Shown: positions 1,544-20,213 of the stretch, one piece after another
Position numbering within the stretch: position 1 is the stretch's first letter
Layout: each line of letters begins with the position of its first letter
DNA from: Oricola thermophila
Lineage (GTDB): Bacteria > Pseudomonadota > Alphaproteobacteria > Rhizobiales > Rhizobiaceae
DNA: 64,000 nucleotides
Assembly (NCBI RefSeq): GCF_013358405.1
Contig: NZ_CP054836.1
Location: 2,480,001-2,544,000, forward strand
Reading direction: 5' to 3'
Program-made: the position numbers and the translations under genes
Notes under the pieces: model-generated
The model's input: only the letters and a program-made list of their open reading frames with translations
What the model was told of the DNA's origin: nothing
Database searches by the model: none

Positions 1544-2302
1544 CTAGCCGGCGGTCCAACCGCCGTCCAGCATCAGGGCGCTTCCCGTCATCAGGGATGA
1601 CGCATCCGAGGCGAGATAGATCGCTGCGCCGACAACATCGTCGACCTGTCCGAGGCGGCCCAACCTGATCTTCTGCAACACCGATGCCCGGAATGCCTCG
1701 TCGCGGAAATAGGACTCGGTCATGGGTGTCTCGATGAAGGTGGGACAGATCGTGTTCACGCGGATCCCGTGCGGACCGAGTTCGATCGCCAGAGCCTTCG
1801 TGAAGCCTTCCAGCGCCCATTTCGAGGCGCAGTAAAGTGTCCGGTTCGCCGCACCGACATGCCCCATCTGCGAGGACATGTTGATCACCGACCCGCCTGC
1901 CCCGGCCTCCAGCATGCGTTGCGTCACCGCCCTGGCCACGAAGATTGCCGCGCGGACATTGAGATCCATGACCGCCGCGTAATCCTCCACGGTAATCTCC
2001 CCCAGGGGTTTTGGCCTATTGGTGCCCGCATTGTTGACGAGGATATCGAATGGCGGCAGCGCCGCGATTGCCGCGGTCGTGGCCCCGGTGTCGAGGACGT
2101 CCTGCACCAGGACATCCGCCTGCCCGCCGGACTCCGCGATCTCGCGCGCCACGGCCCCGATTTCGTCGGCGGAGCGGGCGCACAGGGTGACCGAGGCGCC
2201 GCTGTCGGCGAGCGCTTTCGCGATCGCCTTGCCGATCCCCCGGCCAGCCCCGGTTACCAGTGCGCGCTTTCCGTCGAGCCGGAAAAGCCGGGCGACATTC
2301 AT
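1544..2302 (-). CDS. Short-chain dehydrogenase/reductase (SDR)
   Basis: A 252-aa classical SDR, presumably oxidising a secondary alcohol or polyol with NAD(P)+ in the cytoplasm. The Rossmann glycine motif TGAGRGIG is at about 17-24, NNAG at about 90-93, the catalytic serine at about 143-144, and the YxxxK pair is Y157/K161. The start was chosen at the ATG overlapping the stop of the upstream histidinol-dehydrogenase-like gene (ATGA); longer in-frame starts would run into that gene. Its place as last gene of the sugar-type ABC operon suggests it acts on the imported compound or on the product of its neighbour. The SDR fold does not define the substrate. Confidence 0.9.
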
Positions 2303-3609: not shown

Positions 3610-3690
3610 GTGTGCTCCATTCTCCTGTCCGGATGAACAAGATCGTTTGGGTTGAGGATGGATGGTGCCGGCGCCAGACGGCGCCGTCAT

Positions 3691-4701: not shown

Positions 4702-6333
4702 CTATCCTGTCCTGTCCTTGCGCTCTTCGCCCGGCGCGTTCGCGGTGACCGCGTCGAGGGACGAGTAGCAGGCTTGTGTGATCCGGTCCTTTTCGACGCC
4801 TGCGCCGGTCAGTTCATCGACTATGCGCCCCCTGGCGAAGACGAGAACCCGGTCGCACAGTTCCGCAAGCTGCTCGGCATCGGAACTGGCGCAGACAACG
4901 GACATTCCTTCCGCGGCCGCCCTGCGGACGGCCTCGAATATGTTGGCGCGCGTTCCCACGTCGACACCTTGCGTCGGCTCGTCGAGAAGGAGGAGACGCG
5001 GCTTGCGCTTGAGCCATCTGGCGATCAGAACCTTCTGCGCGTTCCCGCCCGAGAGCGCCGCGAGGTTCAGGTCCGGGTCGTTCGGACGGACCTCGAATTC
5101 CTCTCCCAGCCTGCGCGCCTCGCGACGCATCCGGCCGTTGCGCAGGAAGCCGCCGCGAAAATAGCTGTCCAGATCCGGAAGCAGCATGTTCTCGAAGATC
5201 TTCATGCCTCCGACGCCGCTCTGTGTCGGACGATCCCCCGGCAGCAGCGCGAAGTTCTCCTGTATTGCCCTCGCCGGCGTCATGCCGCTCAGATCGAAGG
5301 CGTCACCGCCGGACAGTTTCAACATGCCCGACTTCGCCTGGCTGGCGCCGAAGAGCAGGTAGGGAACGCGCTCGTAACCCGACCCGATCAGCCCGGTGAG
5401 CCCGATGATCTCGCCGCGCCCCACGGAAATGTTGCATCGGGGTATCCCCTCGCCAACAAGGTCTTCCACCTCTGCGAAAGGCTCGAACCTTCGGGCCTCG
5501 TGAGCGACGGACGCCGACTGCCCCAGCGAGCGCCCGATGATCATCTCGATCATACGGTCGCGGCTGGCCTCGCGGGTTTCGATCTCGCCCGAGACCTTGC
5601 CATCCCGCAGGATCGTGACCCGGTCCGTGATCTCCATGACCTCGTCGATGTCATGGGAAATGAATGTCACGCTCGATCCGTGATCGGCGATCTGGCGCAT
5701 GAGCCGGAACAGGCGGTCTACCCCTTCCTTCGGCAGGAAGGGCGTCGGCTCGTCCAGCAGGACCAGTCCCGGCTGGCCGGTCCGCTCGCACTCCTCGCGA
5801 ATCTCCTCGAAGGCGCGGATGATCGCAATCAGCGCGCGGTTGACCGCGCTGATCTCGTCTATGCGGCGCCACTGCTCGACATCGACGCCGTAGCGATCGA
5901 GGGTCTGCTGCGCGGCGGCCCGCTCCTTGCGCCAGTTGATATGGCGGTTGTCCCCGAGCGCGATCTGCGAAAGACGGAGGTTTTCGAGCACAGTGAGGGA
6001 CGGGACCAGGCCGAGATTCTGATGAACGAAGCTCATTCCGAGCCGCCGGAAATCGGAGGCGGTCAAAGGCAGCGAAACCGGCTGCCCGTTGAAGCGCATG
6101 ACGCCGCCGGGATCGGGCGCATGGAATCCGGCAAGGATCTTGATCAGCGTGGATTTTCCCGAGCCGTTGGTGCCGAGCAGCCCGTGAACCTCTCCGGGCC
6201 GGACGGTCAGCGCCACATTGTCCAGCGCGCGCGTCGCCCGGAAAGTCTTTGAAACATTTTCCAGTTCAAGGGTCGGCGGCGCCCCGGGGGGCACCACCTT
6301 CCTTTCTCGCGAAGCCTGTTCCACGGTCTTCAC
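4702..6333 (-). CDS. Sugar ABC transporter ATP-binding protein (RbsA-type, two NBDs)
   Basis: A 543-aa protein with two fused nucleotide-binding domains, the CUT2 arrangement. The first Walker A is intact (GTNGSGKST, about 54-62), but the first signature motif is degenerate: ISAVNRALIAI stands where LSxGQ is expected, although its Walker B (LVLLDEPT) is kept. In the second half Walker A is degenerate (GLIGSGYERV, no lysine/threonine) while the signature (LSGGNAQKV) and Walker B (LLLLDEPTQGVD) are intact. The dimer would therefore have one complete composite ATP site and one dead site. It lies between the binding protein and permease genes with almost no spacing. Confidence 0.92.
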   Translation of the reverse strand: MKTVEQASRERKVVPPGAPPTLELENVSKTFRATRALDNVALTVRPGEVHGLLGTNGSGKSTLIKILAGFHAPDPGGVMRFNGQPVSLPLTASDFRRLGMSFVHQNLGLVPSLTVLENLRLSQIALGDNRHINWRKERAAAQQTLDRYGVDVEQWRRIDEISAVNRALIAIIRAFEEIREECERTGQPGLVLLDEPTPFLPKEGVDRLFRLMRQIADHGSSVTFISHDIDEVMEITDRVTILRDGKVSGEIETREASRDRMIEMIIGRSLGQSASVAHEARRFEPFAEVEDLVGEGIPRCNISVGRGEIIGLTGLIGSGYERVPYLLFGASQAKSGMLKLSGGDAFDLSGMTPARAIQENFALLPGDRPTQSGVGGMKIFENMLLPDLDSYFRGGFLRNGRMRREARRLGEEFEVRPNDPDLNLAALSGGNAQKVLIARWLKRKPRLLLLDEPTQGVDVGTRANIFEAVRRAAAEGMSVVCASSDAEQLAELCDRVLVFARGRIVDELTGAGVEKDRITQACYSSLDAVTANAPGEERKDRTG

Positions 6334-6338
6334 CGAAC

Positions 6339-7457
6339 TCAGTTCATTTTCCAGAGTTCACGGAAGCCGGAGACATAGGCATCGCCATAGCCGGTATCGA
6401 ACTGCGCCGGCGTGCCGGCCTCAGCCGCATTGTCCTTGTCGAAGATGTAGAACGGGACGTTGAGCTTGTCCGGAACCGGCAGGTCGCACAGGTCCCGCAT
6501 GTTCGCGTCCACCGTCGCGTAGGCGATCCAGTCGAGGCTCTCGCCGATATCCATGTCGACCGCACCCTGCTGGATGAAATCGATGACGAAGGGCGTGCCG
6601 TTGAAGGTCGGAACCTTGATCTGGCCGAGCTTGCCGGTCAGGCGAAGCGCCGGAACGACGAACTGCGACATAGAATCGTAGATCGGAACGATCACGTCGA
6701 TGTCGGGGTTGGCCTGGATCGTCGACTGGACGGAGGACTGGATCTTGGTGCCCCACTCCGCGACGCCGACATTGATTTCCTGGACGATCTCGCATTCAGG
6801 GCAGTTCTCGGCAAGCTCGCTCTCGAAACCGTCGACCAGCGGAATGGTCGGCGGAACCTCGCGGGAGACCACCAGCGCGATCTTGCCCTTGCCGCCGGTG
6901 TTCACCGTGATCCAGTTCGCGAGGATCTTGCCAATTTCGTTGAAGCCGACCGGAAGGGTGGAGGAAAGCAGCGGATTGGTCTCGTCGGACGGGTCGTAGA
7001 AATGCGACGTCGTCACCTTCACGCCCGCCTCGCTGGCGGCCTTGATCTGCGGCTCCACCGTATCAGGCGAAATGCCGGAGATCAGGTTGATGACGTCGTA
7101 GCCGTCGCGGACCGCAAAGTCGAAGCCCTGGACCCACTGGCTCGGCTGCCCCTGGTTTTCCCATTCGGTGACATCGAGCCCGATATCCTCGCCGACCGCC
7201 TTCATCCGGTCGATGATGCCCTTAAGAAACGGGTTAGCGCTGCTGTTGGGAATCGCCAACATCTTCTTGCCCGCCGCGCATGCCTTGATGTCGAACGGCT
7301 CACCCGGCGCGGTGAATACCGGTTTCTCCGAATAGACGGCCAGGCGTTCCTGAGCACGGGCTATCCCGTCCTCAACGCCTTGCGCGTTGGCCGCCGTTGC
7401 GGCGACCGACAGGGCAAGCACGGATGCAAGCCCGCTGATCTTTACTGTGTGCCTCAT
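6339..7457 (-). CDS. Sugar ABC transporter periplasmic substrate-binding protein
   Basis: A 372-aa type I periplasmic binding protein (RbsB-like, Peripla_BP_4 class), slightly longer than RbsB. The N-terminus is a Sec signal peptide, probably cut after ATAANA (about residue 25). The first beta-strand is KKMLAIPNSSANPF, similar to the ligand-site entry of sugar-binding family members. The reading frame stays open far upstream, but the ATG at 7457 is preceded by GGGAGTC and begins the signal peptide, so it was chosen. It is first gene of the five-gene minus-strand operon and lies just downstream of the 14-bp palindrome at 7515-7528. Confidence 0.93.
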   Translation of the reverse strand: MRHTVKISGLASVLALSVAATAANAQGVEDGIARAQERLAVYSEKPVFTAPGEPFDIKACAAGKKMLAIPNSSANPFLKGIIDRMKAVGEDIGLDVTEWENQGQPSQWVQGFDFAVRDGYDVINLISGISPDTVEPQIKAASEAGVKVTTSHFYDPSDETNPLLSSTLPVGFNEIGKILANWITVNTGGKGKIALVVSREVPPTIPLVDGFESELAENCPECEIVQEINVGVAEWGTKIQSSVQSTIQANPDIDVIVPIYDSMSQFVVPALRLTGKLGQIKVPTFNGTPFVIDFIQQGAVDMDIGESLDWIAYATVDANMRDLCDLPVPDKLNVPFYIFDKDNAAEAGTPAQFDTGYGDAYVSGFRELWKMN

Positions 7458-7514
7458 GATTGACTCCCGGTTTCCACGTTCAAGCGCACCCTCAGGCTTC
7501 CTCCACCTGTGTTT

Positions 7515-7528
7515 TGAATACGCATTCA
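7515..7528. promoter_or_regulatory. Putative LacI-family operator, copy 1
   Basis: The palindrome TGAATACGCATTCA has two 7-bp arms (one transition pair off perfect symmetry) around a central CG, the usual form of LacI-family operators. It is in the divergent region between the binding-protein gene (start 7457) and the LacI-family regulator (start 7755), about 58 bp from the former. The exact reverse complement occurs at 12704-12717. An identical 14-mer in two divergent promoter regions is unlikely by chance in 64 kb. Confidence 0.72.
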
Positions 7529-7754
7529 CATCTTTCCCGGTAATTTCCGGTCTGTCAATCATCGTTCGGGCCAAAGCGACTTGCCGGCGACTTTCCCCTG
7601 AGCAACCGGACGAGGCCGCAGACATACGCGACGGCATTCGATATTTGCACATCGTTCGGGATCGTGGCTTATGAAGCATCCTCCCCCCGGGGAAGGACAG
7701 CAACCGCAACCAGAAATCGGCAATGCCCGCGAGAACAGAAACCGTGTCCGCGCC

Positions 7755-8786
7755 ATGAAGAAGAAGAAATCGAGAGTTACGTCCTTCGAGGTCGCAAAGC
7801 TGGCCGGGGTCTCCCAGCCCACCGTGTCGAGAGCGTTCACGCCCGGCGCCAGCATCGCGAAGGAGAAACGCGACCGGATCCTGGCGGCAGCGAAGAAGCT
7901 CAACTATGTGCCGAACGTCTTTGCCTCCAGCCTGTCGTCGAAACGCAGCAACATGGTCGCCGTGATCAGCGGCAACCTGAACAATCCCTTCTACTCGGAA
8001 AGCCTCCAGGTCTTCGTCGAGAGCTTCCAGCGCTCGCACCGCCAGGTGCTGGCATTCTCGGTCCAGGACGGACACGACTGCGATGACGTGATGATGCAGG
8101 CGATGCGCTATCCGGTCGACGGGATCGTGGTCACATCCGCGCAGATGTCGTCGGAACTGGTTCGCATGAGCGAGGGGCTCGGCATCCCGATCGTTATGTT
8201 CAACCGCCGTGTCTCGGACTCCGAGCTGGCGGCCGTGCAGTGCGACAACACCGAGGGCAGCGCCGCGCTCGGCCGGCTCATGGTCGCGGCCGGCGCCCGG
8301 CGCATCCTGATCGTCAGGGGCGACCCGCAGGGATCCACCAGCGGCGACCGCGTCGCGGGTTTCCGGTCGGTCGTGGACAGGACCGAAGGGTGCGTGGTCG
8401 AGGAGATCGACGGCGGGTCCAGCTATTCGGGCGCCCGGAACGCGATGATCCGCCGCTTCGGCGGGCCGGCGCCACGCTTTCCCGACGCGATCTTCGCGGT
8501 AAACGACATCATGGCGATCGGCTGCGCAGATGCGCTGCGCGAGGTGCACGGGATCAGGATTCCGGAGGACGTCATGCTGGCCGGATTCGACGGCATCCGC
8601 GAGGGCCAGCGCGCGCCCTACCGGCTGACGACCGTGCGCCAGCCGATCGAGCGGATGGTGACGGAGACGCTGGAAATGCTGGACAAGGCTCCAGACGAAC
8701 AGATCCCCGCGGACGAAAGGCGGCGCGTCATTCCGGGCGACCTCATCCCGGGCCGCACCATTCCGGGCATGGAGCGGCAGGCGTAG
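7755..8786 (+). CDS. LacI-family transcriptional regulator
   Basis: A 343-aa repressor: an N-terminal LacI helix-turn-helix (about residues 9-31, VAKLAGVSQPTVSRAF) plus the hinge, then a periplasmic-binding-protein-like effector domain with the typical AVISGNLNNPFYSE entry and VMLAGFDGIREGQ near the end. The ATG at 7755 places the helix-turn-helix a few residues from the N-terminus as usual for the family; an in-frame ATG at 7671 would add 28 residues of unlikely sequence. It is divergent from the sugar-type ABC operon and faces the operator at 7515-7528. Its C-terminal codons and stop lie within a hairpin. Confidence 0.92.
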   Translation: MKKKKSRVTSFEVAKLAGVSQPTVSRAFTPGASIAKEKRDRILAAAKKLNYVPNVFASSLSSKRSNMVAVISGNLNNPFYSESLQVFVESFQRSHRQVLAFSVQDGHDCDDVMMQAMRYPVDGIVVTSAQMSSELVRMSEGLGIPIVMFNRRVSDSELAAVQCDNTEGSAALGRLMVAAGARRILIVRGDPQGSTSGDRVAGFRSVVDRTEGCVVEEIDGGSSYSGARNAMIRRFGGPAPRFPDAIFAVNDIMAIGCADALREVHGIRIPEDVMLAGFDGIREGQRAPYRLTTVRQPIERMVTETLEMLDKAPDEQIPADERRRVIPGDLIPGRTIPGMERQA

Positions 8787-8798
8787 AACGCCTGCCGC
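8774..8798. terminator. Perfect hairpin over the regulator stop codon, probable convergent terminator
   Basis: A 10-bp perfect stem (8774-8783 with 8789-8798) has a 5-nt loop, TAGAA, that contains the stop codon of the LacI-family gene. The gene on the other strand ends at 8806, so the hairpin sits between convergent genes and could stop transcription both ways. There is no T-run on either side. Confidence 0.55.
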
Positions 8799-8805
8799 GG
8801 GCATG

Positions 8806-10584
8806 TCACTCGGCCGCTTGGTGGACGCCGGGTATGAAGCCGAAATCGAACGGAGCCGGTTCGCCCCGGGTCGTCTTCATCTGCGCGCGCAGCGCGGTCG
8901 TTGCCGCCGTGTCGATCACCATGTCGTCGGAGATGACGACGCCGTAGTCGGCCTCCGCCTTCTCCTGCGATACGAGGCCGTCGTTGACATCGCGCAACAC
9001 CTTCTCGACGGGACGGTCCAGCGGATCTCCCCAGCCGCCCGAACCGGCGGTTATGAAGATGATCTTGTCGCCGGGCTCGACCTTCAGGTTGTCGAGCTTC
9101 GACTTGATGCGCTCGGGTTCGTCCGACCCCGCACGCACGAGCCACTTGCTCGAGGTGCCGCCGTGCAGGCCGCCATTGATGCCCCATGGCGGCACGACCT
9201 CGCGGTCGTCATGGATCGAGATCGAACCAGCCTCGAGAACCCGGTAGACCTTTTCGATTCCCGCACCGCCGCGATGAAGGCCGGCGCCGCCCGCGTCGCG
9301 CACCGGGCGGTAGCTTTCCACCAGGACCGGGTAATAGTTCTCGATGTACTCGATCGGCGTCGCGCTGAAGAGCGGCCACCAAGCATGGCCGTCCAGACCG
9401 TCGCCGCGCGGACGCCCGGGCACGCCGCCGAACAGCAGTTCCATGAGCTGGAAATATTTCCCGTTCTTGTCCTTGCCCGTGTAGATGAAGTGCGGGCTGG
9501 TGCCGTAACCCGCCGCCATCGACAGATGCGGCGCCCGCTGGCCGAGCGCGCCGGCTTGGCAGTCGAAGAAGCGCGTATGCGTGTTGAGACGGTTCGACAG
9601 GGCCGCCGGGAAGCGCGGATTGAGGAGGCTTCCCTCCGGAAGGATGATCTCGAAGAGATCGTAGAAGCCCTCGTTGAACATGATCTTCGGATCGAAGGCC
9701 ATGATCATGTAGACGCCGAAGAACAGCTTGCAGAGCCCTTCATGGATATGGAAGTTGATCGGGCCTTCCGCCTGGTCGTCCGTGCCTGTCCAGTCGATGA
9801 CGGCCACATCGCCGCGCCGATAGATCGAAAGATGGATCTTGAACGGACCGTTTCCCACACCGTCATCATCGACATAGTCCGTGAAGGTCACGGGTTCTTC
9901 CGGAATGTAATTGGTGATGAGAACGCGCATTGCCTCGCGCGTGCGGTCCATCAGCAGGTCACATGCGGAAAGATAGGTGTCCCGACCGAAGCGGTCGCAG
10001 ATCTCGCGAACGCGCTTTGCGGCCGTGCGACATCCCGCGACGAGCGCCATCAGGTCCGCCCGGTTCATGTCCGGCGTGCGGCTGTTGTTCAGCATGATCT
10101 GGAGAACGGCGTCGTTGAGCTTGCCCTTCTCGTAGATCTTCACCGGCGGCACGCGCAGGCCTTCTTCCCAGATCGAGTAGGCATCCGCCGGCATGGATCC
10201 CGGCACCTTGCCGCCAACATCGACCATGTGCCCGAAGATGGAACTGAAGCCGACATGCACCCCCTCGTGGAAGATCGGCATCATCACGCACCAATCGTTG
10301 TTGTGGGAGATCGAGCCCTTGCAGGCATAGGGATCGTTCCAGACGAAGATGTCGTCTTCGTGGATATTGTCCTTGTACTGCTCGACGATCGCGGGGATGT
10401 AGGAGCCGAACTGGCCGACAACCATCTGACCGTCCGGATTGCAGATCATCGGGAACTCGTCATGCTGTTCGCGGATGACCGGCGAAAGCGCGACGCGCAC
10501 CACGACACTGTCCATTTCGAAACGGGCATTGAGAAGCGCGTTCTCGATCAGGTCGAGGGTAATGGGATCAACTTGCTTCGTCAT
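8806..10584 (-). CDS. hyuB: Hydantoinase/oxoprolinase B subunit family protein
   Basis: A 592-aa HyuB-family protein, full length. The N-terminus has the family start (DPITLDLIENALLNARFEMD), then the IREQHDEFPMI and WNDPYACKGSISHNNDW blocks, and the glycine-rich C-terminal region (RDAGGAGLHRGGAGIEKVY, then a GGLHGG motif). With HyuA such proteins open cyclic amide or imide rings at the cost of ATP (N-methylhydantoinase, 5-oxoprolinase) or form acetone-carboxylase-like complexes. It lies 4 bp after hyuA. The substrate cannot be read from the sequence; the linked operon suggests a small cyclic amide or imide. Confidence 0.92.
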   Translation of the reverse strand: MTKQVDPITLDLIENALLNARFEMDSVVVRVALSPVIREQHDEFPMICNPDGQMVVGQFGSYIPAIVEQYKDNIHEDDIFVWNDPYACKGSISHNNDWCVMMPIFHEGVHVGFSSIFGHMVDVGGKVPGSMPADAYSIWEEGLRVPPVKIYEKGKLNDAVLQIMLNNSRTPDMNRADLMALVAGCRTAAKRVREICDRFGRDTYLSACDLLMDRTREAMRVLITNYIPEEPVTFTDYVDDDGVGNGPFKIHLSIYRRGDVAVIDWTGTDDQAEGPINFHIHEGLCKLFFGVYMIMAFDPKIMFNEGFYDLFEIILPEGSLLNPRFPAALSNRLNTHTRFFDCQAGALGQRAPHLSMAAGYGTSPHFIYTGKDKNGKYFQLMELLFGGVPGRPRGDGLDGHAWWPLFSATPIEYIENYYPVLVESYRPVRDAGGAGLHRGGAGIEKVYRVLEAGSISIHDDREVVPPWGINGGLHGGTSSKWLVRAGSDEPERIKSKLDNLKVEPGDKIIFITAGSGGWGDPLDRPVEKVLRDVNDGLVSQEKAEADYGVVISDDMVIDTAATTALRAQMKTTRGEPAPFDFGFIPGVHQAAE

Positions 10585-10588
10585 GATT

Positions 10589-12646
10589 TCATTCTCCCTT
10601 TGCGGTCGGCCAGATCATCAGGTTTCCGAGCGTGTCCACCTCGGCATAGTGATCGGGCAGCAGCACCGTCGTCGTATCGTATTGTCGGATGATTGCGGGC
10701 CCTTCGACACGCGCCCCGGCAGCGAGCCGATCACGGTCCACATGCGGGGTATCGACCCACTTGCCGTTGAAATAGCCCGGCTGCGTCTCGATGATGGCCT
10801 TGCTGACGTCGGTCGACCCCGAAGCCGGAGGCGCCTCGGCGACCGGCGGCGTCGCGCCCGTGGCGACAACGCGCAAGGCGACGAGCTCGATGGGCAGGTC
10901 GAAACGGACACCATAGAGGCGCTCGTGAGTGTCATGGAAATCGGCGAGCGCCGACTCGATACCGGATGCCTCCTCTATCTTGTCGGCAGGCACCTGGATC
11001 GTCACCTCGAAGCCCTGCTGCTCGTAGCGCAGATCGAGCGAATAGGTGATGCCGCGATCGGCTTCCGCAACTTCCTGCTCGTCGAGCCATTCGACGGCCT
11101 TCCGGCGAAGCTCGGCGAACTGTTCGAACACCTGCGTATCGTCCATGCCCGCGATCGAGCCGATCAGGGTACGCACGAACTCGTTCTTGAACTCGGCTTC
11201 GAGGAAACCCAGCGCCGACAGCACGCCCGGATTGTGCGGCACGACAACCGGATAGCAACCAAGGAGCGCCGCAATCGCGTTAGCATGAAGCGGACCGGCC
11301 CCGCCGAAGGCGACCATGCCGAAATCGCGCGGATCGAGACCACGCTGAACCGTGATCACCCGCAACGCGCCAAGCATTACCTCGTTGGCGATATCGAGAA
11401 TGCCCTGGGCGGCCGCTTCCGGACCGAGGCCGATGGCCTTTCCGATGCCGGCGACAGCCTCTCGGGCGCCCTCGACGTCAAGGCTCATGTCACCGCCAAG
11501 AAGGCGTGACGGAAGATAGCCGAGCACCACGTTGGCATCCGACACGGTCGGCTCCGTGCCACCGCGACCGTAGGCTACCGGGCCAGGCATCGCGCCGGCG
11601 CTGCGCGGTCCGACGCGCAGGGAACTGGTCAGCTCGGACACCTCGGCGATAGAGCCGCCGCCCGCGCCGACGCTTCGGACATCGAGCGTAGGAACCTTGG
11701 CGGGGAAAAAGCCCACTTCCGTGGAACGGGAGATCGTGGGTTCGCCGTCGATGATCACGGAGACGTCGGTCGAGGTGCCGCCCATGTCGAAAGCGAGAAG
11801 CTTGCTGAGGCCAGTGCGGCGCGCGACCATCGCCGTCGCGGTCACGCCACCGGCCGGTCCCGACAGGACGGTGTGCACCGGACGCGAAGCCGCCGCCTGC
11901 GCGCTCATCAGGCCGCCGTCGGAGCGCACGATGTGCAGCTTGGAGTCGACCCCCACCTCGGCCAGGCGCTTCTCGATCCGCGACAGATAACGGGTCATGA
12001 TCGGACGCACATAGTCGTTCATCACGGTCGTTATGGCGCGGTCATACTCGCGGAATTCCGGCAAGATGTCCGAGGAGAGCGACACGTGCATGTCCGGAAA
12101 ACGCTCGAGGACGAGTTCGCGAAGGCGCTGCTCATGCGCCGGATTGGCATAGGAGTGCATCAGCGAGATGGTAAGCGCCTCGATACCCGAGCCACAGAGG
12201 TCCTCGATCAGTTCGATCGCGCGGGCCTCGTCGAGTTCGCGAGTCACATTGCCCCGGGCATCGATACGCTCGGGAATGCCGCGCGTGTCCTTCAGCGCGG
12301 CGAGCGGGTCCGGCTTGTCCATGACGATCCAGCCGAAGAGCGGCCCCGGCGTCCAGGACTTTGCGAGATGCAGCGTGTACTCGAAACCCTCCGTAACAAG
12401 AAGGCCGACACGGGCACCCTTACCTTCCAGAACTGCGTTGGTGGCAACGGTGGTGCCATGAAGGACAAGCGATATGTCCGACGGCTTGACGCCTGCCTTT
12501 TCGCAAATCAGGCGAACGCCCTCCGAAACACCGATCGACTGGTCCTGCGGTGTGGACGGAGTCTTTGCCCGGTATGTCGTCTTGGTCGCATCGTCCTGAA
12601 GAAGCAGATCGGTGAACGTCCCGCCTACATCAACTCCTAGCCTCAT
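10589..12646 (-). CDS. hyuA: Hydantoinase/oxoprolinase A subunit family protein
   Basis: A 685-aa HyuA-family ATPase subunit. The actin-like phosphate-binding motif GVDVGGTFTD is at residues 4-13, with a second ATP-site block (AFDMGGTSTDVSVI) and the family motif VAFGGAGPLHA in the C-terminal half. HyuA normally pairs with HyuB for ATP-driven hydrolysis of hydantoins, 5-oxoproline or related rings. The gene is first in the hyuAB operon and divergent from a leuC-like gene. The shared divergent promoter holds the second copy of the LacI-type operator, 58 bp upstream of this start. Confidence 0.93.
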   Translation of the reverse strand: MRLGVDVGGTFTDLLLQDDATKTTYRAKTPSTPQDQSIGVSEGVRLICEKAGVKPSDISLVLHGTTVATNAVLEGKGARVGLLVTEGFEYTLHLAKSWTPGPLFGWIVMDKPDPLAALKDTRGIPERIDARGNVTRELDEARAIELIEDLCGSGIEALTISLMHSYANPAHEQRLRELVLERFPDMHVSLSSDILPEFREYDRAITTVMNDYVRPIMTRYLSRIEKRLAEVGVDSKLHIVRSDGGLMSAQAAASRPVHTVLSGPAGGVTATAMVARRTGLSKLLAFDMGGTSTDVSVIIDGEPTISRSTEVGFFPAKVPTLDVRSVGAGGGSIAEVSELTSSLRVGPRSAGAMPGPVAYGRGGTEPTVSDANVVLGYLPSRLLGGDMSLDVEGAREAVAGIGKAIGLGPEAAAQGILDIANEVMLGALRVITVQRGLDPRDFGMVAFGGAGPLHANAIAALLGCYPVVVPHNPGVLSALGFLEAEFKNEFVRTLIGSIAGMDDTQVFEQFAELRRKAVEWLDEQEVAEADRGITYSLDLRYEQQGFEVTIQVPADKIEEASGIESALADFHDTHERLYGVRFDLPIELVALRVVATGATPPVAEAPPASGSTDVSKAIIETQPGYFNGKWVDTPHVDRDRLAAGARVEGPAIIRQYDTTTVLLPDHYAEVDTLGNLMIWPTAKGE

Positions 12647-12703
12647 TGTCTGTCTCCAAATTCATTCGTTATCCACCGGCCCGGTCGATGGCGCGCTTGC
12701 TAT

Positions 12704-12717
12704 TGAATGCGTATTCA
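12704..12717. promoter_or_regulatory. Putative LacI-family operator, copy 2
   Basis: TGAATGCGTATTCA is the exact reverse complement of the palindrome at 7515-7528. It lies in the 183-bp divergent region between hyuA (start 12646) and the leuC-like gene (start 12830), 58 bp from the hyuA start, the same distance as copy 1 from the binding-protein start. This suggests that the regulator at 7755-8786 controls both flanking operons here. Confidence 0.72.
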
Positions 12718-12829
12718 TGAAATAGTATGGTGACGCCGAAATCAAGCGATATTTCACCCGAATCTTCCGAGCGAAATAGCGGCCCGGAGGAGCGACAAGT
12801 ATTTGTTTTAAAAGGAGAACCCCCCATAA

Positions 12830-14233
12830 ATGGCGGGACATACCCTGTATGAAAAGATATGGAGCAGGCATGTCGTGACCGATTTCGGGAACGACGAGGC
12901 ACTGCTCTACGTGGACCGCCACCTGGTGCAAGAGGTGTCCAGTCCGCAGGCATTCGCAGCCCTCGACAAGGCGGGACGCAAGGTGCGCCGGCCGGAGGCT
13001 CATATCGCGGTCGCGGACCACGCGGTCCCCACACTGCGAAACGGCGACACCTTCGCCGACGAGCTTGCCCGCAAACAGGTCGAGCGCCTCAATCAGAACG
13101 CCGCCAAGCACGGTATCACCTACATACCCATGGACGGTGCCGGGCATGGAATCGTCCACGTGATCGGACCCGAACTCGGCTTCACGCTGCCTGGAGCCGT
13201 GCTTGTATGCGGCGATAGCCATACCTGCACCCACGGTGCGTTCGGCTGCATTGCATTCGGCATCGGAGCAAGCGAATGCGCCAGCGTCTTCGCGACCCAG
13301 ACCCTCCGGCAACGCCGGCAGAAGACGATGCGCGTCAACCTGGAAGGCGGCCTGCCGCACGGCGTCACCATCAAGGATGTCATTCTCGCCCTGATCGCTG
13401 AGATCGGAACCGGCGGAGGCGTTGGCTACGCAATCGAATTTTCCGGCTCGACTGTCCGGGACCTGTCGATGGAAGCGCGCATGACGCTCTGCAACATGGC
13501 GATCGAGGCAGGCAGCCGCGTCGGCATGGTTGCCCCGGACGAAAAGACGATCTCATACCTGGAAGGCCGGCCGCTCGCGCCGTCGGGAGATGTCTGGCAG
13601 GCCGCGGTGAAGGACTGGCTCTCGCTCCGCAGCGACGAGGATGCGGTCTACGACCGGGAGATCACATTCGATACGTCCGCGCTCGCCCCGCAGGTATCCT
13701 GGGGCACGACCCCGGAACTGACGTCGCCCGTCACCGGCGTCGTGCCGGACCCGGACGCCGAGCCGAACGAAAACCGCAGCGAGAAGATCAGGAAGAGCCT
13801 CGCCTACATGGACCTCAGGCCGGGCACGGCACTCGCCGAAATCGCCATCGATCGGGTCTTCATCGGGTCCTGCACCAACGGCCGTATCGAGGACCTGCGC
13901 GCTGCCGCGGGAATTCTCGCCGGGAGGAAAGTCGCAAGCGGCGTGGCGGCGATCGCCGTCCCCGGCTCGGCATCCGTCAAGACGATGGCCGAGGCCGAAG
14001 GGCTGCACGAGATATTCCTCGCGGCCGGCTTCGAATGGCGCGATGCGGGCTGCTCGATGTGCGTCGGCATCAACGAGGATCGCCTGGCGGAGGGAGAGCG
14101 TTGCGCCTCCACCTCGAACCGGAACTTCGAAGGCCGGCAGGGAATTGGCGGTCGAACCCACCTGATGAGTCCGATCATGGCCGCCGCCGCGGCAATTGCA
14201 GGACACATCACCGACGTCAGGGAATTTCTTTGA
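12830..14233 (+). CDS. leuC: 3-isopropylmalate dehydratase large-subunit family (aconitase superfamily), probably catabolic
   Basis: A 467-aa LeuC-type large subunit of an iron-sulfur hydro-lyase. The three expected [4Fe-4S] cysteines are present (C348 in GSCTNGR; C408 and C411 in AGCSMCVG). The VCGDSHTCTHGAFG block is at about 126-139 and the active-site STSNRNFEGRQG block is near 430. The start follows an AAAAGGAG box. With the small subunit it would hydrate or dehydrate a branched malate/maleate. No other leucine-synthesis genes are near, and the linked hydantoinase, amidase and lyase genes point to catabolism. Relatives include maleate/citraconate hydratases and 2,3-dimethylmalate dehydratase DmdA; which applies is not decidable here. 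Confidence 0.9.
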   Translation: MAGHTLYEKIWSRHVVTDFGNDEALLYVDRHLVQEVSSPQAFAALDKAGRKVRRPEAHIAVADHAVPTLRNGDTFADELARKQVERLNQNAAKHGITYIPMDGAGHGIVHVIGPELGFTLPGAVLVCGDSHTCTHGAFGCIAFGIGASECASVFATQTLRQRRQKTMRVNLEGGLPHGVTIKDVILALIAEIGTGGGVGYAIEFSGSTVRDLSMEARMTLCNMAIEAGSRVGMVAPDEKTISYLEGRPLAPSGDVWQAAVKDWLSLRSDEDAVYDREITFDTSALAPQVSWGTTPELTSPVTGVVPDPDAEPNENRSEKIRKSLAYMDLRPGTALAEIAIDRVFIGSCTNGRIEDLRAAAGILAGRKVASGVAAIAVPGSASVKTMAEAEGLHEIFLAAGFEWRDAGCSMCVGINEDRLAEGERCASTSNRNFEGRQGIGGRTHLMSPIMAAAAAIAGHITDVREFL

Positions 14234-14237
14234 GACC

Positions 14238-14876
14238 ATGAAAAAGCTGTTGAAACTGCGAAGTGTCGCCGCGCCGCTGTTCGAGAACGCGGTCGACACG
14301 GATGTCATCTTCCCGGCGAGGTTCCTGCTCATCCTGGACCGCGACGGGCTCGGCAAATACGCCTTCAATGAAAGAAGGAGCGGCACTTCCCCATTCGTCC
14401 TGGACACACCGCCTTACGACAAGGCGGAGATTCTCGTGACCGGGGAAAACTTCGGCACGGGTTCGAGCCGCGAACAGGCCGTCTGGGCATTGGCGGATAT
14501 CGGCATCCGCTGCGTCATTGCCCGCAGCTTCGGCGAAATCTTCTTCGCCAACTGCTTCAAGAACGGCCTGCTGCCGATCCGCCTCGAAGGCAGCGACATG
14601 ACGGCCGTCGAACGAGCGGCAAGCGCCGCCGAGCCGGTCACCGTCGATCTCGAAAGCCAGCGCATCGAGCTGGCCGACGGCACGGTCATCCGCTTCGACA
14701 TCGAACCGAACCGCAAGCGCTCGCTGCTCTCCGGGCTGGACGAGGTAGGCATCATTCTCGCCGAGGAGGTGGCCGCGATCGAGGCTCATGAAGCGCGCCG
14801 TGCCGAGACGGCCCCATGGCTCGTGATCGCTTCGCGGCAGTTCGAAAACATACCCCCAAAAGAGGACGCAGCCTGA
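14238..14876 (+). CDS. leuD: 3-isopropylmalate dehydratase small-subunit family
   Basis: A 212-aa LeuD-type swivelling subunit, partner of the upstream LeuC-like protein. Near the N-terminus is the family motif NAVDTDVIFPARFL, followed by GTGSSREQAVWAL and the AxSFGEIFFANCFKNGLLPI block, all standard for small subunits. The ATG at 14238, 4 bp after the leuC-like stop, was chosen because it begins KKLLKLRSVAAPL, matching family starts; an upstream in-frame start would overlap leuC. It overlaps the next gene by one base. The substrate is as uncertain as for the large subunit. Confidence 0.9.
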   Translation: MKKLLKLRSVAAPLFENAVDTDVIFPARFLLILDRDGLGKYAFNERRSGTSPFVLDTPPYDKAEILVTGENFGTGSSREQAVWALADIGIRCVIARSFGEIFFANCFKNGLLPIRLEGSDMTAVERAASAAEPVTVDLESQRIELADGTVIRFDIEPNRKRSLLSGLDEVGIILAEEVAAIEAHEARRAETAPWLVIASRQFENIPPKEDAA

Positions 14877-15517
14877 TGAGTACCGAAAGCGATCTCCAGG
14901 AAAACTACCGCCGCGCATACGGAAACAGGATCGGTTTCGGCAAGAAGCCCGCGCTCATACTGATCGATTTCGTCGAAGCCTATTTCGATCCCGCATGCGA
15001 ACTTTACGCTGATGTCGAGGACGCCCTCGCCTCCGCCCTCCGTATACGCGACAAGGCACGCGAGATCGGGATTCCGGTCATTTACACGAATGTCGTCTAC
15101 CAGGCCGGCGGCGTCGATGGCGGGCGCTTCTTCCAGAAGGCCCTGCCGCTCAGAAACTTCGTTTCCGGGAACCCCATGGGTGCGTGGCCAAAAGGCATGG
15201 AAGTCGGCGAGCACGAACTCGTCGTCTCCAAGCAGTACCCGAGCGCCTTCTTCGGCACTTCCCTTGCTGCGACGCTCGCGACCCTGGGCGTGGACACGCT
15301 TGTCCATACGGGCCTGACCACGAGCGGCTGCGTGAGAGCCACCTGTGTCGATTGCTGCTCGCACGGCTTCATTCCGATCATCGCCCGCGAAGCGGTCGGA
15401 GATCGCCACAGCGCGCCCCATGAAGCGAACCTGTTCGACATGGACGCCAAATACGCCGACGTCGTCAGCGAGGCCGACGTCATCGAATATTTCAACAAGA
15501 CGGGAAAAAGCCAATGA
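14876..15517 (+). CDS. Isochorismatase-family cysteine amidohydrolase
   Basis: A 213-aa member of the isochorismatase-like cysteine hydrolases. The triad is visible: D31 (LILIDF), K119 (VVSKQYPSAFFGT) and nucleophile C152 (GLTTSGCVRATCVD), the last preceded by the family cis-peptide region. Such enzymes hydrolyse small amides: N-carbamoylsarcosine, maleamate, ureidoacrylate, nicotinamide. The start at 14876 overlaps the leuD-like stop (TGATG). Next to HyuAB it could hydrolyse the amide left after ring opening, giving the acid used by the LeuCD-type hydro-lyase. That order is inference. Confidence 0.9.
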   Translation: MSTESDLQENYRRAYGNRIGFGKKPALILIDFVEAYFDPACELYADVEDALASALRIRDKAREIGIPVIYTNVVYQAGGVDGGRFFQKALPLRNFVSGNPMGAWPKGMEVGEHELVVSKQYPSAFFGTSLAATLATLGVDTLVHTGLTTSGCVRATCVDCCSHGFIPIIAREAVGDRHSAPHEANLFDMDAKYADVVSEADVIEYFNKTGKSQ

Positions 15518-16398
15518 ACAAGCCGAGCCTGCGAGCCGCCCTAGAGACCGGGAACATCGTCGTCGCGCCGGGTATCCACGACATGATCGCAGCCGTGGTC
15601 AGCAACAAGATCGGCTTCGACTTCGTCTATTCCTCCGGCTACTGGGGCACGGCATCGGCGCAGGGTATCCCCGACGCCGGAATCGCCACCTACACGGAAA
15701 TGCTGGATCGGGTGGAAACCCTCTGCCGGACCGCCAATGCCAGCGTCATCGCGGATGCCGATACCGGCTATGGCGGCCTGCTGAATGTCGACCACACCGT
15801 TCGCGGCTACGAGCGCGCCGGCGCAGTGGCCATCCAGATCGAGGACCAGGAATTTCCGAAGAAGTGCGGCCACACGCCCAACAAGCGGGTCGTTCCGCGC
15901 GAGGACATGATGCGCAAGATCCAGGTGGCCTGCGAAGCGCGCGAGAAGAAGAGCGAAACGCTCATCATCGCCCGAACCGATGCGCGCCAGGTCGAGGGTT
16001 TCGATGGCGCGATCCAGCGCGGCCTCGCCTATCGCGACGCGGGCGCGGACATCGTCTTCGTCGAGGCGTTGGAAAGCGAGGAGGAGATGCGGCGCGCATG
16101 CGAGCTGATCCCCGCGCCAATGATGGCCAACATGGCCGATGGCGGAAAGACCCCCATTCGTCCCGCCTCGGAGCTCGCCGAAATAGGGTACGCTCTCGCC
16201 ATCTTCCCGTCGATGACCGGCCTTGCGGCCGCCGCGGCCGTGGAAAACGCGCTGAAGGTACTCAAGGTCGAGGGCACTTCGGCATCGGACAATATCGACC
16301 TGTTCGATTTTTCCGAGTTCAACCAGCTGATCGGCTTCCAGTCCGTCTGGGATTTCGAAGCGCGGTGGGCAGAGGTGGAGGATTCCGGTCATGGCTAA
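15514..16398 (+). CDS. Isocitrate lyase/PEP mutase superfamily lyase (2-methylisocitrate or dimethylmalate lyase-like)
   Basis: A 294-aa TIM-barrel lyase. The Mg2+-site block DADTGYG is at 81-87 and the superfamily catalytic motif KKCGH at 116-120; the retained cysteine fits a true C-C lyase such as methylisocitrate lyase or 2,3-dimethylmalate lyase rather than a phosphonate mutase. It starts at an ATGA overlap with the amidohydrolase stop. Placed right after a LeuCD-type hydro-lyase, it could cleave a branched malate to pyruvate (or glyoxylate) plus a short acid, as in the dimethylmalate branch of nicotinate fermentation. Oxaloacetate decarboxylase-like activity is an alternative. Confidence 0.88.
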   Translation: MNKPSLRAALETGNIVVAPGIHDMIAAVVSNKIGFDFVYSSGYWGTASAQGIPDAGIATYTEMLDRVETLCRTANASVIADADTGYGGLLNVDHTVRGYERAGAVAIQIEDQEFPKKCGHTPNKRVVPREDMMRKIQVACEAREKKSETLIIARTDARQVEGFDGAIQRGLAYRDAGADIVFVEALESEEEMRRACELIPAPMMANMADGGKTPIRPASELAEIGYALAIFPSMTGLAAAAAVENALKVLKVEGTSASDNIDLFDFSEFNQLIGFQSVWDFEARWAEVEDSGHG

Positions 16399-17344
16399 CG
16401 TGGCCTGCATCGGTGTCGGCACCGTGGGAAGCGGCTGGGCGGCCGTTTTCGCGCGGGCCGGACACACGGTGTCCCTGTTCGACGCGAAGGAGGACACGGT
16501 ATACTCATTCGCAATGCCACGCATCGAGGCGACGCTGCGCCAGCTCCATGAGGCAATGCCCGCAGCCGAGACTCCGGGCGAGATCCTCGACCGCGTCATT
16601 CCTTGCGGCAAACTTCGCCAGGCCGTCGAAAACGCCGACTACGTGCAGGAAAGCGTTCGCGAGGACATCGACGTCAAGCGCGCCCTGTTCGACGAGATCG
16701 GGCGGCTCGTCCCCGCGACCTGCCTTCTGCTGTCATCTACATCGGCACTGCCCGGTTCTCGCTTCCTGTCGGACATCCCCGCCCCGGAGCGCGCGCTCGT
16801 GGCGCATCCGGTCAACCCGCCATCGCACATTCCGCTCGTCGAGCTGTGCGGCACCGGATTGACGGCGCCCGAAAGCATAGAGGCGGCACGCGCCTTCTAT
16901 ATCGACGCCGGAATGGATCCCATCGTTGTGAGAAAGGAAATCGACGGCTTCATTCTCAACCGTCTGCAATACACGCTCGTCGCCGAGGCCATGCATCTTG
17001 TCGGCGAGGGCTATTGCACCGCGGAGGAAGTGGACCGCGTGATCACCAGCGGCCTCGCCCTGCGATGGGCATCCATCGGCCCGTTCATGACCGCACATCT
17101 CAATGCGCGGGACGGCTTTGCCGGCTTCGTCGGACAACTTGGCCCGATGATGAAGAAAATGGGACAGGACGCGCGCACAGACTACGACTGGGGCCCGGAG
17201 ATGGTCGAGACCATCCACGGGCAACTGTCGGCATCCCAGCCCGTCGAGACCATTCCCGCGGCCCAGGCATGGCGGGACCGGCGCATCCTCGCGACGCGGA
17301 AAATGCAGGCGGGAGACAGGATTCCGGACAAGTCCGACAACTGA
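16391..17344 (+). CDS. 3-hydroxyacyl-CoA dehydrogenase-like NAD-dependent dehydrogenase
   Basis: A 317-aa, two-domain dehydrogenase of the family that includes L-gulonate 3-dehydrogenase and L-carnitine dehydrogenase. The dinucleotide motif GVGTVGSG is at 8-15, the catalytic histidine is H139 (AHPVNPP) with E151 beyond it (VELCGTG), and the C-terminal helical domain begins with IDGFILNRLQYTLVAEA. It overlaps the lyase gene by 8 nt. It likely oxidises a 3-hydroxy acid or its reverse reaction product; it may not use CoA thioesters, as its non-CoA relatives do not. The substrate is not known. Confidence 0.88.
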   Translation: MANVACIGVGTVGSGWAAVFARAGHTVSLFDAKEDTVYSFAMPRIEATLRQLHEAMPAAETPGEILDRVIPCGKLRQAVENADYVQESVREDIDVKRALFDEIGRLVPATCLLLSSTSALPGSRFLSDIPAPERALVAHPVNPPSHIPLVELCGTGLTAPESIEAARAFYIDAGMDPIVVRKEIDGFILNRLQYTLVAEAMHLVGEGYCTAEEVDRVITSGLALRWASIGPFMTAHLNARDGFAGFVGQLGPMMKKMGQDARTDYDWGPEMVETIHGQLSASQPVETIPAAQAWRDRRILATRKMQAGDRIPDKSDN

Positions 17345-17388
17345 CGACACAGCAAGGGAGGAGGCCGGCACCGGATGCCGGCGACGCA

Positions 17389-18555
17389 ATGATGATCTCG
17401 CCATTTGCCTTTAACACCACCAGGTCGCTGGTCTTCGAGCCCGGCGCGGCCGCGAAGCTGGCGGAAGCCGCCGGCGCCATCGTCGGAACGGCATGCCTCT
17501 TCGTCACCGATCCCGGGTTGCGGAAGCTCGGCCTCTGCGACCCGGCGATCGCCTCCCTCGAGGCGGCCGGAATCGCCGTGACGGTATTCGACGCGGTCGA
17601 AGCGGATCCGAGCCTCGCCACGCTGATTGCCGCCGTCGACGTCGGCCGTTCGGCGAGGGCTAGCGGCGTTGTCGGTTTCGGCGGCGGATCGTCGCTCGAC
17701 GTGGCCAAGCTCGCGGCGCTCCTTATCGGTTCCGGGGAGGAACTCGACGAGGCCTGGGGCGTCGGCAACGCGAAGGGCCCTCGCCTGCCGCTCGTCCTGG
17801 TCCCGACCACGGCGGGAACCGGCTCCGAGGTCACCCCGGTCTCGATCATCACGGTCGGCGAGGAGGAAAAGCGCGGCGTGTCCTCGCCGGTCATCCTGCC
17901 GGACCTGGCGGTGCTCGATCCCGGCCTGACGCTCGGCCTGCCGCCCGCCATCACGGCGGCGACCGGCGTGGACGCGATGGTTCACGCGATCGAGGCCTAT
18001 GCCTCGAAAAGCGCCAACAACAACCCGTTGTCGAAACTGCTGGCCCGCGAGGCGCTTCGCCTCCTGGGCGCGAACATCGAGACTGCAGTCTTCGACGGGA
18101 AGAATGTCGACGCGCGCGGCGCCATGCTGCTCGGCTCGATGCTGGCGGGGCAGGCTTTCGCCAACTCGCCGGTGGCCGCCGTCCACGCGCTGGCCTATCC
18201 GATCGGTGGCACCTTCCACGTGCCGCACGGACTTTCCAACGCGCTGGTACTGCCTCACGTGCTGCGCTTCAACGCGCCGGAAGCCGCCTCGCTCTATGCC
18301 GAAATCGCCCATGACGCCTTCCCTCACCTGGAACGCGACAGCGGCGATCAGGCGATATGCGCCGCCTTCGTCGAGGAACTCGCAGACCTGTCGAAGAGGC
18401 TTGGCATGCAGACCCGGCTGCGCGATGTCGGCATCCCCGACACCGCACTGGAAAAGATGGCATCAGACGCAATGCTGCAACAGCGCCTTCTGGTGAACAA
18501 TCCGCGCGAGGTAAGCGAACGGGACGCTCTTGCGATATACAGGGCGGCCTGGTGA
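17389..18555 (+). CDS. Iron-containing alcohol dehydrogenase
   Basis: A 388-aa group III (Fe-dependent) alcohol dehydrogenase. NAD-binding GGGSSLDVAK is at 98-107, the PTTAGTGSE block at 139-147, and the metal ligands D195, H199, H266 and H280 are all present (GVDAMVHAIEAY; VHALAYPIGG; VPHG). The start at 17389 gives the usual family N-terminus; the frame is open upstream but overlaps the previous gene. It is last in the plus-strand operon. The family includes maleylacetate reductase, lactaldehyde reductase and 4-hydroxybutyrate dehydrogenase, so the role could be aldehyde reduction or hydroxy-acid oxidation in the same pathway. Confidence 0.92.
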   Translation: MMISPFAFNTTRSLVFEPGAAAKLAEAAGAIVGTACLFVTDPGLRKLGLCDPAIASLEAAGIAVTVFDAVEADPSLATLIAAVDVGRSARASGVVGFGGGSSLDVAKLAALLIGSGEELDEAWGVGNAKGPRLPLVLVPTTAGTGSEVTPVSIITVGEEEKRGVSSPVILPDLAVLDPGLTLGLPPAITAATGVDAMVHAIEAYASKSANNNPLSKLLAREALRLLGANIETAVFDGKNVDARGAMLLGSMLAGQAFANSPVAAVHALAYPIGGTFHVPHGLSNALVLPHVLRFNAPEAASLYAEIAHDAFPHLERDSGDQAICAAFVEELADLSKRLGMQTRLRDVGIPDTALEKMASDAMLQQRLLVNNPREVSERDALAIYRAAW

Positions 18556-20173: not shown

Positions 20174-20213
20174 TCCGGCCAACATTGCCGCATAACCGCC
20201 TTTCTGCTAAATC

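Follow-up and report, generated by a model that had tools for sequence, protein, structure and literature searches.

The stretch examined here, referred to as the window, comprises 64,000 nucleotides (bases 2480001-2544000) of the single 3,998,539-base contig of Oricola thermophila, and it holds a gene set in which an aconitase-type LeuCD hydro-lyase and a C-C lyase stand together with an amidase and a HyuAB-type hydrolase. Domains were called by Pfam, and equivalogs by NCBIfam on 18 window proteins. The plus strand carries, in this order, a LeuC-like large subunit, the predicted 4Fe-4S hydro-lyase component that falls into the pathway-linked clade described below (12830..14233, PF00330 Aconitase, 562 bits), a LeuD-like small subunit with the loop DTDVIFPARFL (14238..14876, PF00694 Aconitase_C, 100 bits), an isochorismatase-fold amidohydrolase of the N-carbamoylsarcosine amidohydrolase (CSHase)/NicF type (14876..15517, Isochorismatase, 106 bits), a C-C lyase of the phosphoenolpyruvate mutase/isocitrate lyase (PEPM/ICL) superfamily (15514..16398, PF13714 PEP_mutase, 142 bits, and ICL, 47 bits), a lambda-crystallin-like dehydrogenase of the 3HCDH type (16391..17344, 3HCDH_N, 143 bits, and 3HCDH, 44 bits; best PDB match lambda-crystallin, 3ado) and an iron-type alcohol dehydrogenase (17389..18555, Fe-ADH, 153 bits, and ADH_Fe_C, 184 bits). 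These genes look like one operon, since the gaps from LeuC to the 3HCDH-type gene are only 4, -1, -4 and -8 bases, with 44 bases before Fe-ADH. Facing them on the minus strand, with 4 bases between each other, are the genes for HyuB, the metal-carrying subunit of the ATP-dependent cyclic amide/imide hydrolase family (8806..10584, PF02538 Hydantoinase_B, 486 bits), and HyuA, the ATP-binding subunit (10589..12646, PF01968 Hydantoinase_A, 319 bits, and PF05378, 158 bits).

An initial annotation of this DNA had placed hyuAB, LeuCD, an amidase, a lyase with a KKCGH motif and two dehydrogenases within 8806-18555, and open reading frames and Pfam bear this out, since every gene that it named is intact, lies where it was put and has a strong Pfam match. 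Its limits proved too narrow, and its inventory, right for the enzymes, overlooked genes for an ATP-binding cassette (ABC) transporter, a LacI-family regulator, a HisD-like dehydrogenase and an SDR-family dehydrogenase. With a palindrome, the transporter operon and the lacI gene included, the unit appears to span about 1544-18555 and about 14 genes, a second minus-strand operon among them. This operon (1544-7457) encodes a periplasmic substrate-binding protein weakly like known sugar binders (6339..7457, start at 7457, 372 residues; best NCBIfam match LsrB at 29.8 bits against a cut-off of 384, scanned without the first 29 residues), an ABC ATPase (4702..6333), an open reading frame whose sugar type was judged from its translation and neighbours, a sugar-type permease (3691..4692, NCBIfam best AraH at 126 bits, below cut-off), the HisD-like dehydrogenase (2299..3690, TIGR00069, 424 bits) and, as its last gene, the SDR-family dehydrogenase (1544..2362, PRK07231, 216.1 bits, cut-off 215), whose listed start overlaps the HisD-like gene by 64 bases and whose true start is probably downstream. 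The best PDB matches of the HisD-like protein are (R)-DHPS dehydrogenase (8wwe) and sulfopropanediol 3-dehydrogenase (8v35), enzymes that oxidise a small polar alcohol. The sugar-type transporter together with the HisD-like, SDR, HCDH and Fe-ADH enzymes points to a substrate bearing alcohol groups. The lacI gene lies between the two minus-strand operons on the plus strand (7671..8786; NCBIfam RbsR, 152 bits, below cut-off, scanned from 7761), and its true start is possibly up to 90 bases downstream of 7671.

The LeuCD pair is evidently a second copy that does not serve leucine synthesis. LeuC has the residues expected of the aconitase family, Cys348, Cys408 and Cys411 in SCTNG and GCSMCVG, which we take to be the ligands of the 4Fe-4S cluster. 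The genome holds another leuC at 3451043 and also an aconitase, recognised by length and model. We compared LeuC sequences from this and other loci (cited by L numbers) in a quick IQ-TREE analysis of 54 different rows with SH-like approximate likelihood ratio (SH-aLRT) support, from which duplicate loci (L094-L104, L117, L120, L001), the aconitase (L002), near-copies (L076, L084, L087), matches of fewer than 400 residues (for example L121) and sequences below 40% identity (L079, L080, L093) were excluded. The window LeuC falls within a set of 26 rows from Alpha- and Betaproteobacteria (SH-aLRT 97), of which 21 have a lyase within 3 kb, three only an amidase or HyuAB and two none of these so near. 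Another set, of 14 rows (support 97), contains the genome's own second LeuC, 12 copies that have no pathway neighbours, each from a different further genome, and one copy near a HyuB; we presume this set to be biosynthetic, from its one copy a genome. Constraining the window LeuC to join this set carries a penalty of 77.4 log units and a p-AU of 2.9e-5 in the approximately unbiased (AU) test, for a group named after the tree had been viewed, and a tree without L107 and with a copy of the window row (L003) gives the same placement and a p-AU of 3.7e-6.

The LeuD loop, which touches the substrate in isopropylmalate and homoaconitate isomerases, tells the two kinds apart in a similar manner. After DTDxxx it reads P[AG]R[FY]L in all 24 rows of the pathway clade and in none of five presumed biosynthetic LeuDs, four of which read PKQFL and one PAHWL (12 presumed biosynthetic loci were queried and five contained a LeuD; the genome's own second LeuD lay outside the stretch fetched). 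Eight lyase-linked LeuDs outside the clade also have this sign (L018, L019, L065, L078, L079, L080, L091, L093), and it fails in five lyase-linked loci, namely L038 and L045 (PSREM) and L076, L084 and L090 (PKAHL); the second LeuD of L034, L036, L086 and L087 reads PSREM, and further loops of the PKQ type occur in L107, L119 and L121. The sign is also imperfect because L122 (PARFM) and L123 (PGRFI) have no pathway neighbour. It is possible to regard the pair as an ordinary leucine-type isopropylmalate isomerase that happens to lie among unrelated genes, and the window LeuC and LeuD do pass the bacterial NCBIfam leuC and leuD models. We reject this reading as most improbable, given the second leuC, the separate clade with its AU test and the altered LeuD loop, and the palindrome that the pair has in common with its neighbours also argues against it. 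The two observations that could have returned LeuCD to leucine synthesis, a LeuC placed with the biosynthetic set and the lack of any other leuC, were both looked for, and neither was made.

The lyase carries EDQEFPKKCGH at residues 110-120 and DADTGYG at residues 81-87. In these segments it keeps the acidic metal site as well as the K[KR]CGH loop that mark the 2-hydroxyacid C-C lyases of its superfamily. Aligned with a chain named CPEP mutase, petal death protein, dimethylmalate lyase and methylisocitrate lyases, it has PKKCGH as in the first two. KKCGH and the neighbouring catalytic motifs are the same as in PrpB and petal death protein, whereas the score on the best NCBIfam model, prpB (TIGR02317), is 264.8 against a cut-off of 354.4, and the operon around the lyase is the one described here rather than that of PrpB. 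None of the three genes of this genome that match the prpB model passes it; a second PEPM-family gene (G000:C1:1827952-1828800) reaches 262.6 of 354.4 bits.

The initial annotation had likened the last steps to nicotinate fermentation, in which the dimethylmaleate hydratase DmdAB is followed by 2,3-dimethylmalate lyase. As an analogy the parallel holds, as DmdAB and its lyase are likewise an aconitase-family 4Fe-4S hydro-lyase and a PEPM/ICL-superfamily lyase, and a PDB chain named 2,3-dimethylmalate lyase (3fa3) is among the structure matches. It does not hold as membership. The window LeuC and LeuD are of the bacterial LeuC/LeuD type and stay below the cut-offs of the LEU2 (TIGR02083, 283.1/610.65), hacA-family (TIGR01343, 342.2/385.7) and LeuD/DmdB (TIGR02087, 94/108.95) models, which leads us to reject DmdAB membership on scores from models rather than from DmdAB sequences; DmdB is named in TIGR02087, and we assume that DmdA belongs with the LEU2/hacA type. 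In contrast to the DmdAB system, neither an enamidase nor a B12 mutase turned up in the 18 window proteins scanned, and nitrogen would leave via HyuAB and the isochorismatase-type amidase. In the loci L079, L080 and L093 the lyase is adjoined by a small subunit with PGRYL and by a LeuC that is shorter and of a different type (about 32-34% identity); the short LeuC of L093 is annotated as an aconitase/3-isopropylmalate dehydratase large subunit family protein, and this combination comes close to the expected look of a DmdAB-plus-lyase pair.

The amidase finds its best PDB match in N-carbamoylsarcosine amidohydrolase (26st, 146 bits), followed by 3ot4/3uao (123 bits), which we take to be the maleamate amidohydrolase NicF. 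Asp32, Lys120 and Cys153 align with the corresponding residues of both, as expected of an isochorismatase-type amidohydrolase. It has the fold and the Asp-Lys-Cys residues in common with NicF and N-carbamoylsarcosine amidohydrolase, and unlike them it stands with LeuCD and a lyase.

The motif DxGGTxTD occurs twice in HyuA (residues 6 and 287). In the parts of PMC8453981 drawn on here, the caprolactamase CapAB requires ATP and bicarbonate, and the CapB metal ligands Asp41, His99, Asp102 and His124 are described as conserved in the family; Asp42, His94, Asp97 and His119 of the window HyuB, assigned by spacing, follow the order and near spacing of this tetrad. The A and B domains, the Asp-His-Asp-His set and the ATP motifs of the hydantoinase/oxoprolinase family are all found here, and in domain make-up, metal residues and ATP motifs the pair equals CapAB, the hydantoinase HyuAB and N-methylhydantoinase as that source portrays them, while on the caprolactamase equivalog models it reaches only 246 and 513 against cut-offs of 1000. 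Elsewhere a PuuE-family protein takes the place of HyuAB or is paired with it. In a clustered set of 88 stretches, 87 loci and the first 30 kb of the window, PuuE-family proteins occur in 20, HyuB in 17 and HyuA in 17, and six stretches carry both kinds; seven have the PuuE type and LeuC without HyuAB (L036, L045, L056, L062, L069, L086, L087), L086 and L087 being near-identical plasmids. One PuuE-type protein from these sister loci scores below the TIGR03212 cut-off and matches solved PuuE (3cl6) and, more weakly, 3qbu. According to the accessible text of PMC9304392, the imidase HxnM of Aspergillus nidulans is 64% identical to a Pseudomonas putida cyclic imide hydrolase homologue, has a structure like 3qbu and is followed in nicotinate breakdown by the amide hydrolase HxnN. 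Such replacement or pairing favours a cyclic amide or imide as the probable substrate.

A common palindrome appears to tie these genes together. The 183-base hyuA-leuC gap holds TTGAATGCGTATTCA at 12703..12718, and a similar operator-like palindrome lies at 7514..7529, between the binding-protein gene and lacI. Exact matches to the pattern TGMATRCGYATKCA number two in the whole 4.0-Mb genome, one within the hyuA-leuC gap and one in front of the transporter operon; the reversed-pattern control has none, and chance would give about 0.24 sites a genome on the assumption of even base composition. The leuC-side copy overlaps TTGAAT in the window, with TATGGT 17 bases on, and in L008, L009, L010, L012, L014 and L092 it likewise overlaps TTGAAT or TTGCAT; in all seven a hexamer with 3-5 of 6 matches to TATAAT follows at 16-17 bases. 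Since the palindrome overlaps the first of two promoter-like hexamers, a protein bound there would block a promoter. The copy at 7514..7529 has no good -10 hexamer alongside when read on the plus strand, and the matches to TATAAT at three transporter-side palindromes number 0, 1 and 3, read on one strand and at these three sites only. In 12 further genomes the pattern occurs at 14 sites, of which 11 adjoin pathway genes: five in the hyuA-leuC gap, three between lacI and the binding-protein gene, two before HisD-like genes and one before Fe-ADH; around the remaining three, the 3-kb stretch shows no pathway gene. The site before Fe-ADH is that of Rhizobium alvei, on a contig other than that of its cluster (L009), and the product is 58% identical to the window Fe-ADH. 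Because the palindrome precedes this copy while the L009 stretch has no Fe-ADH, it is an independent sign that Fe-ADH belongs to the set. With a regulator gene, a palindrome over a putative promoter and a transporter under what looks like the same site, the locus has the parts of a LacI regulon; we infer that the LacI protein binds the palindrome, and the roughly 14 genes apparently form one set under one switch. In the genome of L065 the sole exact palindrome (L134:1501-1514) is near a gene that by eye is of the tripartite ATP-independent periplasmic (TRAP) DctP type, on a contig different from that of the LeuCD-lyase cluster.

That the genes would be co-conserved, as the initial annotation supposed, is upheld in close and wider relatives. 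The seven close relatives (L008-L012, L014, L092) all have LacI, LeuC (66-70% identical) and LeuD with the lyase (67-76%), while five have HyuAB (72-82%), five an amidase beside LeuD and five HCDH (48-62%); Fe-ADH is present in three (L010, L014, L092), HisD-like in three (L008, L009, L012; 70-84%) and the binding protein in four (L008, L009, L010, L012; 68-71%). Gene order and strand vary among them, and absences are not firm because the stretches end at most 10 kb from the lyase (15 kb in L092). Relatives of lacI and of the transporter-operon genes near such clusters include LacI at 43-52% (L008-L012, L014, L072, L092), the binding protein at 68-71% (those named and L072), the ABC ATPase at 59-64% (L008, L009, L010, L012, L072), the permease at 66-82% (L010, L012, L014, L072), HisD-like at 68-84% (L008, L009, L012, L018, L019, L093) and SDR proteins adjoining pathway genes at 51% in L009 and 64% in L018. 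A scan of genome contigs gave 543 confirmed candidates, the best 80 of which represent 79 loci, many cut by contig ends; among these 79, LeuC occurs in 35, the amidase in 33, HyuA or HyuB in 19 (two near 30% identity), LeuC together with HyuAB in 12 and any of LeuC, amidase or HyuAB in 51. As these loci were selected, a class sample of 289 genomes is the less biased test. Here the lyase occurs at E <= 1e-80 in 32 genomes, our own included, and of the 32 matches in the 31 others seven have a LeuC-family gene no more than 5 kb away, about 0.27 being expected from gene density, and six have an amidase within that distance. Chance neighbourhood is rejected on this excess, on the overlapping genes and on the conserved surroundings. 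Not every lyase relative can belong to the pathway, since the remaining ones, mostly at about 50% identity and some at contig ends, have neither LeuC nor amidase.

We favour, with a probability slightly above even, a scenario in which the genes form a catabolic regulon controlled by LacI and directed at a cyclic imide, for which a substituted maleimide is the simplest candidate. Opening of an imide ring yields a primary amide that an isochorismatase-type amidase can turn into a diacid; the diacid from a maleimide is a cis-alkene, which an aconitase-type enzyme can hydrate, and the resulting malate is of the substrate type of PEPM/ICL lyases. The order of ring opener, amidase, hydro-lyase and C-C lyase that had been proposed before agrees with the enzyme families. 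In this scheme the LacI protein on the palindrome would control the regulon, the ABC transporter would bring the compound in and the HisD-like and SDR enzymes would oxidise a side-chain alcohol. HyuAB would then spend ATP in converting the imide into a half-amide, from which the amidase would release ammonia and a cis-alkene diacid; LeuCD would hydrate this to a substituted malate, and cleavage by the lyase would yield a second carboxylic acid beside an alpha-keto acid, which would be pyruvate for a ring with a methyl group and glyoxylate for one without, the lambda-crystallin-like and Fe-ADH enzymes feeding the product into central metabolism.

Several observations weigh against this scheme. 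The pathway-linked LeuCs do not form one clade, those outside the window clade being L032, L018/L019, L065/L078/L091, L090 and a group with L034, L036, L038, L045 and L086. Three of the 14 palindrome sites (L133, L134, L138) have no pathway gene in their 3-kb stretch, three of the 12 further genomes have no exact site, and 25 of the 32 class-sample lyase relatives have no LeuC-family gene within 5 kb. A sugar-type transporter would hardly be needed for bare methylmaleimide, and the HisD-like, SDR, HCDH and Fe-ADH proteins cannot be placed in the scheme with confidence, nor do the stretches of all close relatives contain them.

Among solved structures, moreover, the amidase is closest to N-carbamoylsarcosine amidohydrolase and not to 3ot4/3uao, and PuuE opens allantoin, a hydantoin, which keeps a hydantoin in play. 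HyuAB would in that event open the ring of a hydantoin with a 5-substituent or an N-methyl group, and an amino acid would remain once the amidase had removed the carbamoyl group, LeuCD and the lyase handling another, merely co-regulated acid. Neither LeuCD nor PEPM/ICL lyases, however, are known to act on amino acids, the LeuD, amidase and lyase frames overlap and remain together in several lineages, and none of the 18 scanned window proteins is named as a creatinine or hydantoin-racemase enzyme. Although hydantoinases do lie within the HyuAB family (PMC8453981, in the same parts), we regard a hydantoin route as unlikely.

A second scenario starts from sister loci in sphingomonads and rhizobia, which add flavin adenine dinucleotide (FAD) monooxygenases (best PDB matches PnpA and HspB), a maleate-isomerase-like protein, aldehyde dehydrogenases, CaiB and HMG-CoA-lyase-like proteins. 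The last two recall the cleavage of (R)-citramalyl-CoA, again a chemistry of methyl-branched C5 acids. A substrate derived from a hydroxylated pyridine could be a six-membered imide of the glutaconimide/glutarimide type, with LeuCD and the lyase acting on aconitate- or methylaconitate-like acids, and the FAD monooxygenases, maleate-isomerase-like protein and PuuE-type hydrolase of these related loci speak for it, resembling as they do the Aspergillus Hxn set in what is given of PMC9304392. Neither of the two monooxygenase clusters has a member called in the stretches L008-L012 and L014 or in the initial 30 kb of the window, and we consider such a substrate improbable here. HxnM and HxnN, as portrayed there, also act as cyclic imidase and amide hydrolase in turn, the imidase being kin to PuuE as in the sister loci, whereas the window has HyuAB instead and the Hxn route ends at hydroxyglutarate, with neither hydro-lyase nor C-C lyase. 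A recurrent set of FAD monooxygenase (PnpA/HspB-like), maleate-isomerase-like, PuuE-type and lyase genes, in most cases with an aldehyde dehydrogenase, is found in L026, L027, L030, L033, L046, L056, L059, L061, L064, L081 and L088 and may represent a separate, related pathway for N-heterocycles.

A third scenario would make the HisD-like, HCDH, LeuCD and lyase enzymes the core of a route for a nitrogen-free, hydroxylated branched carboxylic acid, to which HyuAB and the amidase only add a side entry for a lactam, imide or amide form. L018, L019 and L093 indeed have LacI, HisD-like, HCDH, LeuC-type, LeuD-type and lyase genes with Bug/tricarboxylate-type binding proteins and no HyuAB, their palindrome stands before the HisD-like gene, and the stretches of L011 and L092 have no HyuAB either. 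Yet the window and five of the seven close relatives (L008, L009, L010, L012, L014) do have HyuAB, which faces leuC across the palindrome in all of them, and we think it unlikely that the imide steps are secondary. Under the imide scheme, loci that have the HisD-like, HCDH, LeuCD-type and lyase enzymes and carboxylate-type binding proteins without HyuAB would enter the route at the diacid, and since L018, L019 and L093 retain the core with Bug-type binding proteins, part of the route may serve nitrogen-free acids.

As for the natural source of a maleimide, a speculative and decidedly doubtful idea is that the regulon is a sink for methylmaleimides from the oxidation of chlorophyll, haem or bilins. 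If such a methylmaleimide carried a side chain of two carbons with an alcohol group, it might enter by the sugar-type transporter and be oxidised to the carboxymethyl form by the HisD-like enzyme; HyuAB and the amidase would give 2-methyl-cis-aconitate, LeuCD 2-methylisocitrate and the PrpB-like lyase pyruvate and succinate, and hematinic acid would likewise yield pyruvate and glutarate. This is consistent with the enzyme families. Maleimides and hematinic acid occur in senescent leaves and lake sediments according to earlier work as told in the portion of PMC7318184 used here, which itself found hematinic acid and left maleimides undetected. General family scans, which included no search aimed at tetrapyrrole genes, named none among the window proteins covered, and titles and abstract beginnings of the chemical, geological and medical open-access literature on maleimides and hematinic acid, and of papers on bacterial haem, revealed no maleimide catabolic pathway. 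Identifying the substrate of the regulon would address the fate of tetrapyrrole-derived maleimides, and the substrate is directly testable through the ligands of LacI or the binding protein, since a single regulator gene and a single palindrome frame the set.

While the kinds of enzyme are already known, we did not find their combination, the regulon or the LeuCD subfamily described in the titles and abstract beginnings of the open-access literature surveyed. In the records examined, the label for LeuCD beside such lyases is 3-isopropylmalate dehydratase and that for the lyase is isocitrate lyase/PEP mutase family protein; these annotations can be corrected because both enzymes look catabolic here and the LeuD sign P[AG]R[FY]L is readable. 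Among 8000 candidates scored in each case, at least 7850 proteins are lyase-like (E <= 1e-60) and at least 6535 amidase-like (E <= 1e-40), and only some of them stand in a pathway setting.

Beyond the operon, the window carries spermidine/putrescine-type binding-protein and ABC transporter genes at 19049-23101, without a copy of the palindrome, and further downstream, on the minus strand at 23508-25941, TRAP transporter genes of the DctP and DctM type. The plasmids of Sphingomonas JE1 (L086) and Sphingobium TomTYG65 (L087) hold two LeuCD pairs, two PuuE/polysaccharide-deacetylase-type proteins, CaiB, an HMG-CoA-lyase-like protein, the amidase and the lyase, and this cluster lies near a VapC toxin-antitoxin pair and an integrase in JE1 or a transfer gene in TomTYG65.

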